Assembly (NCBI RefSeq): GCF_000758525.1
Contig: NZ_CP009241.1
Coordinates: 3,224,001 to 3,288,000, forward strand
Source of the DNA: Paenibacillus sp. FSL H7-0357
GTDB lineage: Bacteria > Bacillota > Bacilli > Paenibacillales > Paenibacillaceae
Direction: 5' to 3'
Length of the DNA: 64,000 bases
The notes beneath the pieces were generated by a model. The model searched no databases and had not been told where the DNA came from. It saw only the letters and a list, made by a program, of their open reading frames with translations. The translations under genes and the position numbers were made by a program. Below are positions 38,374 to 41,343 of the stretch, in pieces. The first letter of the stretch is position 1; every line of letters begins with the position of its first letter.

Positions 38374-39585
38374 ATGAGAAATATAGTAAAAAGAATGCTA
38401 TTTATCATGTGTTTGATTTTGGCTTCAACTGGCACAGGTAGTTATGTGCACGCCGACATGAATCAGACAATCAAAGTAATGGTGAATGGTCAGCTTTTAA
38501 ATATGAACCAGCCAGCCGTTTATAAAAATGGCCGGGTAATGGTACCTATGCGTGCTGTCAGTGAAGCTTTAAATGCTACTATTAAATTCCAGTCTGCTAA
38601 GAAGCCAATTGTGATCGAAAGCGCTTCCTTCGAGGTTTCTTTTACTTTGGGGCAAAAAACGGCCTATACGAACGGGAAGAAGCTTGCTCTTGAGGTTCCG
38701 CCGCAGAACATCAACAATACCATGATGGTGCCCATTGAGTTAATTTCCAAAGGAATGAATACAGATGTGGTATGGAAAGATGTCTGGAAGACCGTAGCTA
38801 TCGAATCGAAGCATGCGGCTAGTGAGGTAGTTACAACGCAAGCTGAAGCATTACAAAAAGCTAAGTACCTTATAGATGGAGACAACAGCACAGCAAAAAT
38901 CAAGGGGCAGGAGCTTCTAAGATACTATAGCGTTAATCTGGACGGTTACAATAACGGTGTGTACCTTGTTGATAAGTACAACGGTGAAGTGCTTTATTAT
39001 TCTATTTCTGATGGAGCTTTTCAAAGTATATCTCGAAGTAATGCCCTTGAAGTTTTGGAAGCAAAGATAGAATCTCAGTCACAGGAACTAACTATTGACG
39101 ACAACGATGAGATTAAAATCATCAACGGGAACAAATACTACGCTTTTAATGTTGAAATAGGAGATGAAAAATATTTTAACTCTTATGTTGTTACCACTAT
39201 GTATGTCAGTGTAGATGGAGAAACTTTCCTCATGTTGAATAAAGACCATCAAGTTGTAGGTTTCTCTGACAAAGCTTTCTCAGAAAATATGAATGCTGTT
39301 TCTTTGAGAGTAAAAGCTTTAGAAGTTCTTGATAAAAAAGTTAGATCCCTTCTTGGAAATGAACCTAATCTTATGGATGATGGTGAGATTAAGACAATCA
39401 ATAAGCAAAATTACTATGTTATCGAAGTGTGTTTTGTAGGGGCAAATAATCCCTATTATTATGTGACTACTGCGTATGTAAGCGCGGGTGCTAAAAGCAT
39501 ATATATGCTGACGAAGGACAATAAGGTTGTTCTGTTCTCGGACAAATTGTTTGTTCAATATATAAATGATGCTCTCAATGGATAA
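38374..39585 (+). CDS. Secreted protein with copper-amine-oxidase N-domain and duplicated C-module
   Basis: This 403-residue protein has a signal peptide (cleavage near YVHADM, residue about 28). A copper amine oxidase N-terminal-like stalk domain of Paenibacillus type follows (about 30-150, with VMVNGQLLNMNQPAVYKNGRVMVPMRAVSE). The C-terminal half has two copies of an unrecognised module of about 90 residues: ALEVLEAKIESQ to FSDKAFSEN and ALEVLDKKVRSL to FSDKLFVQY. A PepSY-like region lies between them. The stalk domain is a wall or surface module, not an enzyme. AAAGGAG precedes the ATG. It lies upstream of the agr genes but has its own terminator. Confidence 0.8.
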   Translation: MRNIVKRMLFIMCLILASTGTGSYVHADMNQTIKVMVNGQLLNMNQPAVYKNGRVMVPMRAVSEALNATIKFQSAKKPIVIESASFEVSFTLGQKTAYTNGKKLALEVPPQNINNTMMVPIELISKGMNTDVVWKDVWKTVAIESKHAASEVVTTQAEALQKAKYLIDGDNSTAKIKGQELLRYYSVNLDGYNNGVYLVDKYNGEVLYYSISDGAFQSISRSNALEVLEAKIESQSQELTIDDNDEIKIINGNKYYAFNVEIGDEKYFNSYVVTTMYVSVDGETFLMLNKDHQVVGFSDKAFSENMNAVSLRVKALEVLDKKVRSLLGNEPNLMDDGEIKTINKQNYYVIEVCFVGANNPYYYVTTAYVSAGAKSIYMLTKDNKVVLFSDKLFVQYINDALNG

Positions 39586-39690: not shown

Positions 39691-39859
39691 TCTTCGCTTC
39701 AGACGTGTATTCCAGGATATCTTGTAGGAGCGAGTATATTGTAACAATCAATTATCATGAGGAAGCGGACCTATTTCGTAGTAAATAAGTAGTATACGGT
39801 AACTCTATTTCGGATTTATAATTAATGCATTGAATGAAAATAATGTCAGGCGGTGTTGT

Positions 39860-40489
39860 GTGTTGCCATGGGAGCCAATGCTATTCATGTTCTTTTCTAC
39901 TATTGAACTCATGTCTATTTATTATTTGATTATGTCGCTCTTTAGATTCAAGTGGAAACATCATGCTTGGCAAGCCTTGTTTGTTACTTTAATTATAAAT
40001 TTGCAGAGCTATTTGGTGAGGAAAGAGCTTGATATGAGCAATATCGCACCTTTAATATTGATAGTAATATTCATATTATTCTTTGCTGCAGTTGTTAGGA
40101 TGCCCCTCATACTGTCCGTTATTGCAACTATATCAGGATATGCTATTTTTGCAGTCATACAAACTGTTATTGTACTTATCTTATTCGGTTCAATAGGAGC
40201 AATAGAAGGGAATAAAAGCAATGGATACATATTACAAGTACTCACCTCCGTAGTTATTTGCTCCTTTTTTTGGCACTACTACAGAAAAGGAAAAGGCTTT
40301 ACTTTTGACATAGAGAAACTTCGTTTTAAATTAGAAGATATTTTTTTAACGACGATCATCATAATTTTCTTAATTGGAATCTCAATTCTTTTATATTACA
40401 ACGAAATTTATTTGAATATATTGTTCTTTTTAATGATCTCAATTTTCTTCATCTATTACTCTACCGGGAAGGAAAAAGAAAATGATTGA
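39860..40489 (+). CDS. Agr-locus membrane protein (AgrC sensor-domain-like, no kinase)
   Basis: This protein of about 209 residues has six to seven membrane helices and a short charged tail. It resembles the N-terminal peptide-sensing half of AgrC receptors but has no histidine kinase domain. The frame is open from TTG 39830, but the likely ribosome site AGGCGGTG lies at 39848-39855, so GTG 39860 or TTG 39863 is the better start. The stop overlaps the agrB start by 8 bases (ATG inside GAAAATGATTGA), which implies coupling. A DUF-type accessory role in export or immunity is also possible. Confidence 0.6.
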   Translation: MLPWEPMLFMFFSTIELMSIYYLIMSLFRFKWKHHAWQALFVTLIINLQSYLVRKELDMSNIAPLILIVIFILFFAAVVRMPLILSVIATISGYAIFAVIQTVIVLILFGSIGAIEGNKSNGYILQVLTSVVICSFFWHYYRKGKGFTFDIEKLRFKLEDIFLTTIIIIFLIGISILLYYNEIYLNILFFLMISIFFIYYSTGKEKEND

Positions 40490-41006
40490 TCGTATATCTC
40501 AGAGGATAGCCTACAACATAAAAAAAGTTGTTCCTGATCACCCCGCATCGCAAGCGGTTCTAAAGTATGCATTAGAGGTTGTGCTAAATGTTGTTTTTAT
40601 CATCGTCATTACACTTGCTATATCTTTGCTCACAGGTAATTTTTCTGAAGCTTTAACGATATTAGTTTCTTTTGCATTACTACGGCAATCGTCGGGCGGT
40701 GTTCACCTTAAGTCGGGTGTAGCATGTGTCATATTTACTACGACGTTGTTTACTGTGCTATCGTTTATTAACGTAAATTTATTAGTTGTACAGGTTATGA
40801 ATGCAATCAGTTTTTTGATCATCTTGTGGTTAGCGCCTATTGGGATTGAAAAGCAGACTAGAATTCCCAAGCGTCACTATCCGAAGCTTAAAATAATCGG
40901 TCTGGTCTTGGTTGCTACAAATGTCATAATTTGTTCATCTGCTATAGCCGTGAGTTATTTTGCTCAATCTCTAAGTCTATTAATTGCCAGAAAGGAGGTG
41001 AAGTAA
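40482..41006 (+). CDS. agrB: AgrB-like autoinducer-processing protease
   Basis: This 174-residue membrane protease cuts the C-terminal leader of AgrD and closes its ring. It has the AgrB signature LRQSSGGVHLKSGVAC: His75 and Cys82 are the catalytic pair, seven apart as in S. aureus AgrB (77, 84). Four to six membrane spans follow, with a basic N-terminus (DRISQRIAYNIKK) facing the cytoplasm. The start overlaps the upstream gene, and the stop is 2 bases before the AgrD start, with the ribosome site of agrD inside its own end. Confidence 0.93.
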   Translation: MIDRISQRIAYNIKKVVPDHPASQAVLKYALEVVLNVVFIIVITLAISLLTGNFSEALTILVSFALLRQSSGGVHLKSGVACVIFTTTLFTVLSFINVNLLVVQVMNAISFLIILWLAPIGIEKQTRIPKRHYPKLKIIGLVLVATNVIICSSAIAVSYFAQSLSLLIARKEVK

Positions 41007-41008
41007 AA

Positions 41009-41143
41009 ATGTTGAAAAAAGCGAATGTTCGAATCGTGTCTGGTTTGGCGACATGCTTATCGATGGTAGCGTTATTCATTGCAAATACAAATAGTGCGTT
41101 GTATGTGCATCAACCTGAGGTTCCAGAAGAACTACTTAAATAA
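41009..41143 (+). CDS. agrD: AgrD-like cyclic-lactone autoinducer precursor
   Basis: The 44-residue peptide follows AAAGGAGGTGA and lies directly after agrB. It has an amphipathic N-terminal helix (MLKKANVRIVSGLATCLSM), a hydrophobic stretch, and a typical acidic C-terminal leader HQPEVPEELLK, as in S. aureus DEVEVPKEL. By alignment to that leader, the mature peptide ends at Val33. The ring-forming position is five residues from that end and is Ser29 (SALYV), not cysteine. A lactone ring rather than a thiolactone is therefore predicted. The only Cys (16) is in the leader helix. The exact N-terminus of the mature signal is unknown. Confidence 0.88.
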   Translation: MLKKANVRIVSGLATCLSMVALFIANTNSALYVHQPEVPEELLK

Positions 41144-41150
41144 TACTGGA

Positions 41151-41231
41151 GTGATCCGTTTGAGTATCATATCCGTGAATCAAGACCCAAAAGGCATTAC
41201 CGGGAGTCGAGCAAAAGTGTTTCCTTTCTGA
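41151..41231 (+). pseudogene. Possible remnant of a downstream agr-locus regulator
   Basis: A GTG at 41151 opens a frame of 26 residues (IRLSIISVNQDPKGITGSRAK), right after AgrD. Its opening has the look of the first strand of small LytTR-domain proteins that I remember beside agrD in Paenibacillus, cut after about 18 residues. A TTG at 41160 is the better spaced start after TGGAG. This is weak; it could equally be a chance frame. Confidence 0.25.
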
Positions 41232-41260
41232 AAAAGGATACAAAGAAGTCAATAAAATAT

Positions 41261-41300
41261 TATAAAAACAACCACTCTGACATGAGTGGTTGTTTTTATA
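41261..41300. terminator. Strong bidirectional terminator after agr cassette
   Basis: A 17-base perfect stem (TATAAAAACAACCACTC with its complement at 41284-41300) has A and T runs on both sides. Confidence 0.92.
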
Positions 41301-41343
41301 AGCGAAAAATTCCATCCCCAATGCGAGTGGGGGATAGAAAAAG

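Follow-up and report, generated by a model that had tools for sequence, protein, structure and literature searches.

Layout of the locus

The window (the whole stretch of DNA analysed here, 64,000 nucleotides in length) covers positions 3224001-3288000 of the 7.69 Mb, single-contig genome of Paenibacillus sp. FSL H7-0357. It contains a compact operon in which the genes of a membrane protein (hereafter MP), AgrB and AgrD follow one another on the plus strand, with the following features:

39792..39822, plus strand: promoter-like element 5' of the MP gene (GTATAC, 19 nt, TATAAT; the -35 is non-consensus)
39860..40489, plus strand: MP, 209 aa, by homology an AgrC-type sensing domain without a kinase, with seven long predicted helices
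40482..41006, plus strand: AgrB, membrane protease/cyclase, 174 aa; PF04647; His75/Cys82
41009..41143, plus strand: AgrD precursor, 44 aa; TIGR04223; predicted ring Ser29-Ala-Leu-Tyr-Val
41160..41204, plus strand: 5' piece of a LytTR pseudogene, from DNA identity to relatives L036/L037
41202..41250, plus strand: 3' piece of the LytTR pseudogene in a different frame, from DNA identity to L038/L037 and tblastn
41260..41301, no strand assigned: terminator-like inverted repeat of 18 pairs, listed on the minus strand only by the repeat/terminator scan

The compact order of membrane protein, AgrB and AgrD is the one given in a preliminary description of this DNA. Its statement that nothing but a terminator follows did not hold, as a stretch that aligns as a LytTR pseudogene lies between AgrD and the inverted repeat. 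For MP, a longer mechanical open reading frame begins at 39830. The promoter-like element is absent from the output of the consensus promoter scan; its (C/G)TATAC is kept in 18 of the 19 aligned upstream regions, and TATAAT or a close variant of it comes next (judged by eye). Ahead of the genes' promoter element, the same alignment of 19 upstream regions showed only partial conservation of an upstream element. In several of the loci L112-L145 and L037-L044, and in modules of both types, a AAAAGTGTC-like element is seen by eye ahead of the promoter, and it is a possible LytTR site. Upstream of the module, at 38374-39585 of the window, lies a gene whose product has a copper amine oxidase N-terminal domain and matches PepSY below the cut-off.

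A broken regulator gene after AgrD

The 26-residue remnant that the preliminary description had noted where a regulator could have been turned out, by DNA alignment and tblastn, to be the N-terminal end of the LytTR pseudogene. Over 44 bases, the 5' piece taken alone aligns with the beginnings of the L036 and L037 LytTR genes (75-77% DNA identity; E 2e-5 and 7e-6), and in tblastn it reaches E 0.001, or 1e-5 when the stretch overlapping AgrD is included. The 3' piece has 75-88% DNA identity with L037, L038, L049 and L056 (E 3e-5 to 4e-11; 82-88% for L038/L037) and E 5e-8 in tblastn. The two pieces stand in different frames, and relative to L037 approximately 245 bp are absent between them. On these alignments, the region after the window AgrD is a stand-alone LytTR pseudogene with an internal deletion, the deletion being known from one assembly. 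The LytTR proteins of intact relatives (about 109-162 aa) are too short for a receiver, and the window locus holds no AgrA-type receiver-LytTR response regulator, the LytTR pieces being all that was found there.

MP is a sensing domain without a kinase

MP had no match in Pfam, NCBIfam or the PDB (the latter searched by profile), and among 72 aligned MP relatives any single weak Pfam match was common to at most four. Structure prediction folds MP with confidence (pLDDT 90.8) into seven long helices packed as a bundle, for which the comparison with solved structures gave no clear match. The best named protein match comes from Paenibacillus sp. FSL M7-1046 (98% identity over 95% of the query). 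The assignment came from longer homologs: the MP profile A2 matches six proteins of 452-469 aa at L190-L192 (E 4e-25 to 7e-32) from three genomes that belong to a different family of the order, where the MP domain forms the N-terminal half and AgrB is nearby. HATPase_c was present in all five of these long proteins that were scanned, and two adjoining regulators combine a receiver with a weak GerE match below the cut-off. Because the same domain makes up the N-terminal half of AgrB-linked histidine kinases, MP is, by homology, the sensing half of an AgrC-type sensor without its kinase, as the preliminary description had proposed. These MP-domain histidine kinases occur up to three in tandem at L190-L192.

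The idea of a kinase lost in the window strain has to be abandoned, as the kinase-less form is the usual one in the genus and in the sampled order. No AgrC histidine kinase was found at the window locus, where MP stops at 209 aa, and none of the 108 full-length MP loci of the genus encodes an MP long enough to contain a kinase. With a profile made in this analysis, a kinase-like ORF was detected in one of the 110 genus regions (L091). Across the order, an MP profile built from 72 MPs matches 153 of the 246 sampled genomes and 34 of the 46 genera; among the matches listed, the open frames have 193-324 residues, except four of 456-477. PF14501 has 25 matches in the source genome and none at the window locus, and both MP-family members of this genome are short. 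A quick MP tree, with long branches and uneven support, gives no order of appearance for the kinase-bearing and kinase-less forms. Several tandem MP genes surround a single AgrB-LytTR set at L205, L206 and L207, and the genomes G102 and G110 have 12 MP matches each.

The cyclase and its peptide

The window AgrB matches PF04647 with 84.4 bits (cut-off 23; E 8e-24), and its His75 and Cys82 align with the catalytic His and Cys, conserved in 101/101 AgrBs counted (33/33 Lys-type and 68/68 Ser/Cys-type). The window AgrD scores 45.9 bits against TIGR04223 (cut-off 19) and 13 bits against Pfam PF05931, under the cut-off of the latter. Ser29 stands five residues ahead of the tail HQPEVPEELLK, which gives the predicted ring SALYV. 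Among 111 assigned AgrD peptides (118 AgrB loci, seven of them without an assigned AgrD; eight script picks were rejected by eye and eight peptides entered by hand), this ring position, five before the tail, holds Ser in 70, Cys in 6 and neither in 35. The comparison of position 29 across relatives thus bore out Ser29 as the ring residue; Ser, described beforehand as rare, is the commonest state in this group, Cys is restricted to the six, and Lys-type peptides occur besides. The Lys stands one position after the ring position in 33 of the 35 peptides without Ser or Cys, which is the fair count, since membership of the Lys class depends on that very residue. One of the six Cys-type peptides (L108_177) also carries a Lys at -4.

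Closure of a lactone by Ser is established for the peptides of Staphylococcus pseudintermedius and for GBAP in the passages of PMC3673130 that treat them. By analogy, we infer that the SALYV ring would be a lactone, and the window strain, judged from its genes, probably still makes it.

The complete module and its losses

A search with the single MP sequence found matches in 75 of 100 genus genomes, at 110 places, and all 110 regions were annotated with profiles built from them. These regions contain 111 MP ORFs, of which three short fragments were dropped, leaving 108 full-length loci. The complete form in relatives is MP-AgrB-AgrD-LytTR. AgrB and LytTR, the two genes that the locus tally scores (AgrD is outside it), are both intact in 83 of the 108 (82 by script plus L111, recounted as complete with its AgrB upstream of MP), a share that describes these loci and should not be read as a genus-wide rate, as the single-sequence search misses members that profile A2 finds. 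AgrB is present with no adjacent full LytTR in 15 (the window, L091 and 13 others), LytTR is intact with AgrB lost or broken in nine, and one locus has neither. The preliminary description had suggested comparing the genes downstream of AgrD across relatives: what stands there in relatives with the complete module is a stand-alone LytTR gene. Order-wide, AgrB and LytTR are intact for 13 of the 29 full-length MP ORFs in 20 regions; one of the complete modules, L208, is preceded by a GHKL kinase, a pointer to possible other receptors. On the MP tree, the fewest changes are five for LytTR presence and six for AgrB presence, a count that cannot separate gain from loss.

Two of the 15 LytTR-less genomes, G051 and G090, have a LytTR gene farther upstream on the same contig. 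The S-type LytTR profile A3, at E 1e-5, found nothing in 12 LytTR-less genomes and the window genome except for the stump of L091, and it matched in three control genomes. At L091, LytTR is reduced to this 37-residue stump, and a response-regulator-like ORF followed by a kinase-like ORF lies approximately 1.4 kb after AgrB, possibly a swap of output.

The nine loci in which MP and LytTR are intact and AgrB is lost or broken (L048, L049, L051, L054, L060, L073, L074, L075 and L077) are candidate eavesdroppers, with some of the broken AgrBs coming from draft genomes and the L048 genome being 71% complete. One of them, L049, shares with the window the order AraC gene, module, tRNA-Val(gac), cupin gene and start of a NUDIX gene; the AraC gene is also common to L036, where the module is complete. 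L049 has MP and LytTR without AgrB and AgrD, whereas the window has MP, AgrB and AgrD with a broken LytTR. Judged from this shared gene order, the window and L049 are the same chromosomal site with opposite losses.

The remaining genes of such loci were compared by dN/dS (NG86, rough at this divergence). In the listener-type L074, L075 and L077, values were 0.07-0.11 for MP and 0.05-0.14 for LytTR (six of 12 pairs scored, the others being saturated), and in six LytTR-less loci they were 0.08-0.20 for MP (13 of 15 pairs) and 0.12-0.21 for AgrB (10 of 15 pairs). From these values, each half looks constrained where the other half is missing. For the window, the absence of a kinase is ordinary for its group, and the loss of the regulator is what is unusual in this strain.

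A second module and related phage modules

The same genome contains a complete second module at 5414761-5416441 (L003:4762-6442), consisting of MP2, AgrB2, a 46-residue peptide ORF and a LytTR gene (L003:6077-6442; 47.3 bits). The second peptide has no Cys or Ser at the ring position and carries a Lys at the next position towards the cleavage site, and a genome search with TIGR04223 at E 1 did not list it. Lys-type peptides such as this one could be lactam or linear autoinducers.

The same four-gene order, with Lys-type peptides as judged by eye, is found in Abouo (L220), Harrison (L221) and Emery (L222), phages of Brevibacillus and Paenibacillus, Harrison being a Paenibacillus phage. The MP profile matches the MPs of all three at E 3e-23 to 8e-36. 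Downstream of AgrD, the next gene encodes a LytTR protein, over the Pfam cut-off in Abouo and Harrison and below it in Emery. In Abouo the module lies near an integrase gene; in Harrison, a serine recombinase gene is nearby.

Relation to known systems

Agr is the textbook peptide quorum-sensing system of Gram-positive bacteria and is described with a sensor kinase. In staphylococci (agrBDCA), this is the AgrC kinase, which works with a receiver-LytTR response regulator and a peptide with Cys in the ring. The present module resembles the staphylococcal one in the AgrB protease with its His/Cys, in an AgrD with a ring residue and a PEVPEEL-type tail, and in the AgrC-type sensing domain. It differs in that it lacks the kinase and the receiver-LytTR response regulator, the sensor gene comes first, and Ser replaces Cys. 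The peptides of S. intermedius/pseudintermedius and Enterococcus faecalis (GBAP) work via kinase receptors. As far as PMC3673130 covers them, they are Ser lactones rather than thiolactones, as is predicted for the present peptide, but in the present case an entire group commonly has Ser.

A second parallel is provided by the LytTR Regulatory Systems HdrRM and BrsRM, in which, according to the sections of PMC6193735 devoted to them, a membrane protein keeps a LytTR regulator inactive and direct repeats upstream of the operon promoter are a hallmark. Relatives with the full module, like the paralogous copy in this genome, similarly encode a stand-alone LytTR protein with a membrane protein and without a kinase, the LytTR gene being broken in the window. 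In contrast to HdrRM/BrsRM as presented there, the membrane protein gene lies upstream of the regulator gene, and the module includes its own peptide signal and AgrB. Against a simple transfer of that model stand the expected repeats, which the scan did not bring out, the MP-first order (the reverse of the Streptococcus mutans systems) and a group of species that keep MP-AgrB-AgrD and in which no related LytTR was found. As regards the repeats, a scan for LytTR half-site pairs upstream of MP stayed at the level of shuffled sequences, with a consensus that may not suit this clade.

A 2014 paper (PMC3901668) had already recorded AgrB and AgrD in the phages Davies, Emery and Abouo, together with AgrC-like membrane proteins that have no HATPase_c. 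Those cassettes are phage-borne, and the section of that paper on them names neither a LytTR partner nor the bacterial family of such modules. Our literature search, conducted chiefly outside subscription papers, found no description of the bacterial module. Kinase-less AgrC-like proteins were thus already known from phages, and the bacterial MP-AgrB-AgrD-LytTR module is a new variant of Agr.

Proposed mechanism and alternatives

We consider it probable that the intact module is a kinase-free form of Agr quorum sensing, in which the sensor MP controls LytTR, and that the window copy has lost its output in cis. In this scheme, which draws on knowledge of the families involved, AgrB would cut AgrD and close the five-residue lactone through Ser29, and in the intact module the peptide would bind MP. 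MP would then control the stand-alone LytTR protein without phosphorylation, the simplest way being to retain it at the membrane and then let it go, by analogy with the LytTR Regulatory Systems. In the window strain, the LytTR gene is destroyed by the internal deletion, so that the signal may be sent and perhaps bound with no output in cis. The retention of MP and LytTR together after AgrB loss in nine of the 108 loci was counted in favour of the pairing of these two proteins. Because six LytTR-less loci show constrained MP and AgrB, LytTR may not be the sole partner of MP.

Alternatively, the window cassette could be dead and decaying after the loss of its regulator, in line with the destroyed LytTR gene and the partly conserved element upstream of the promoter. 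This is unlikely, as the frames of MP, AgrB and AgrD are open with the catalytic and ring residues kept, an MP of 98% identity occurs intact in a close strain (P0001), and the MP and AgrB of the six LytTR-less relatives appear to be under constraint.

It is quite unlikely that an AgrC/AgrA-type two-component system encoded elsewhere reads the peptide in trans, with MP as an accessory. The search of the genome for AgrC/LytTR partners that the preliminary description had proposed was productive in one respect, with six GHKL kinases (open frames of 431-447 aa) that each adjoin a LytTR protein of response-regulator length (receivers judged by eye). None of the six, however, lies beside either AgrB or carries an MP-type sensor, the two MP-family members of the genome being short, and MP is kept with LytTR where AgrB is lost. 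Because such a kinase/regulator pair lies near the module of L091, where LytTR is a stump, this explanation gains slightly and the MP-LytTR scheme loses slightly.

Finally, the clade-specific LytTR profile has its top match within the genome in the LytTR protein of the second module (L003:6077-6442; E 8e-6, the next being a long response regulator at E 7e-4), but that this protein supplies the output for the window module is very unlikely, given the different peptide core and distant MP (21-24% identity) of its own module and the lack of any match to the S-type profile A3 in the window genome at E 1e-5.

Implications

Returning to the reading of MP as the controller of LytTR, a wider generalization seems conceivable, although we place it slightly short of an even chance: Agr in the Paenibacillus order may be mostly phosphorylation-free, with a kinase-free AgrC domain gating a LytTR activator, and with lineages losing either the sending or the responding half to become listeners or senders without output in cis, while a large Lys sub-group would use lactam or linear peptides. 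The widespread pairing of this sensing domain with a bare LytTR protein makes AgrC-type signalling without phosphate testable. Likewise, sender-only and listener-only natural alleles of what appears to be one chromosomal site would be useful for studies of cheating and eavesdropping.
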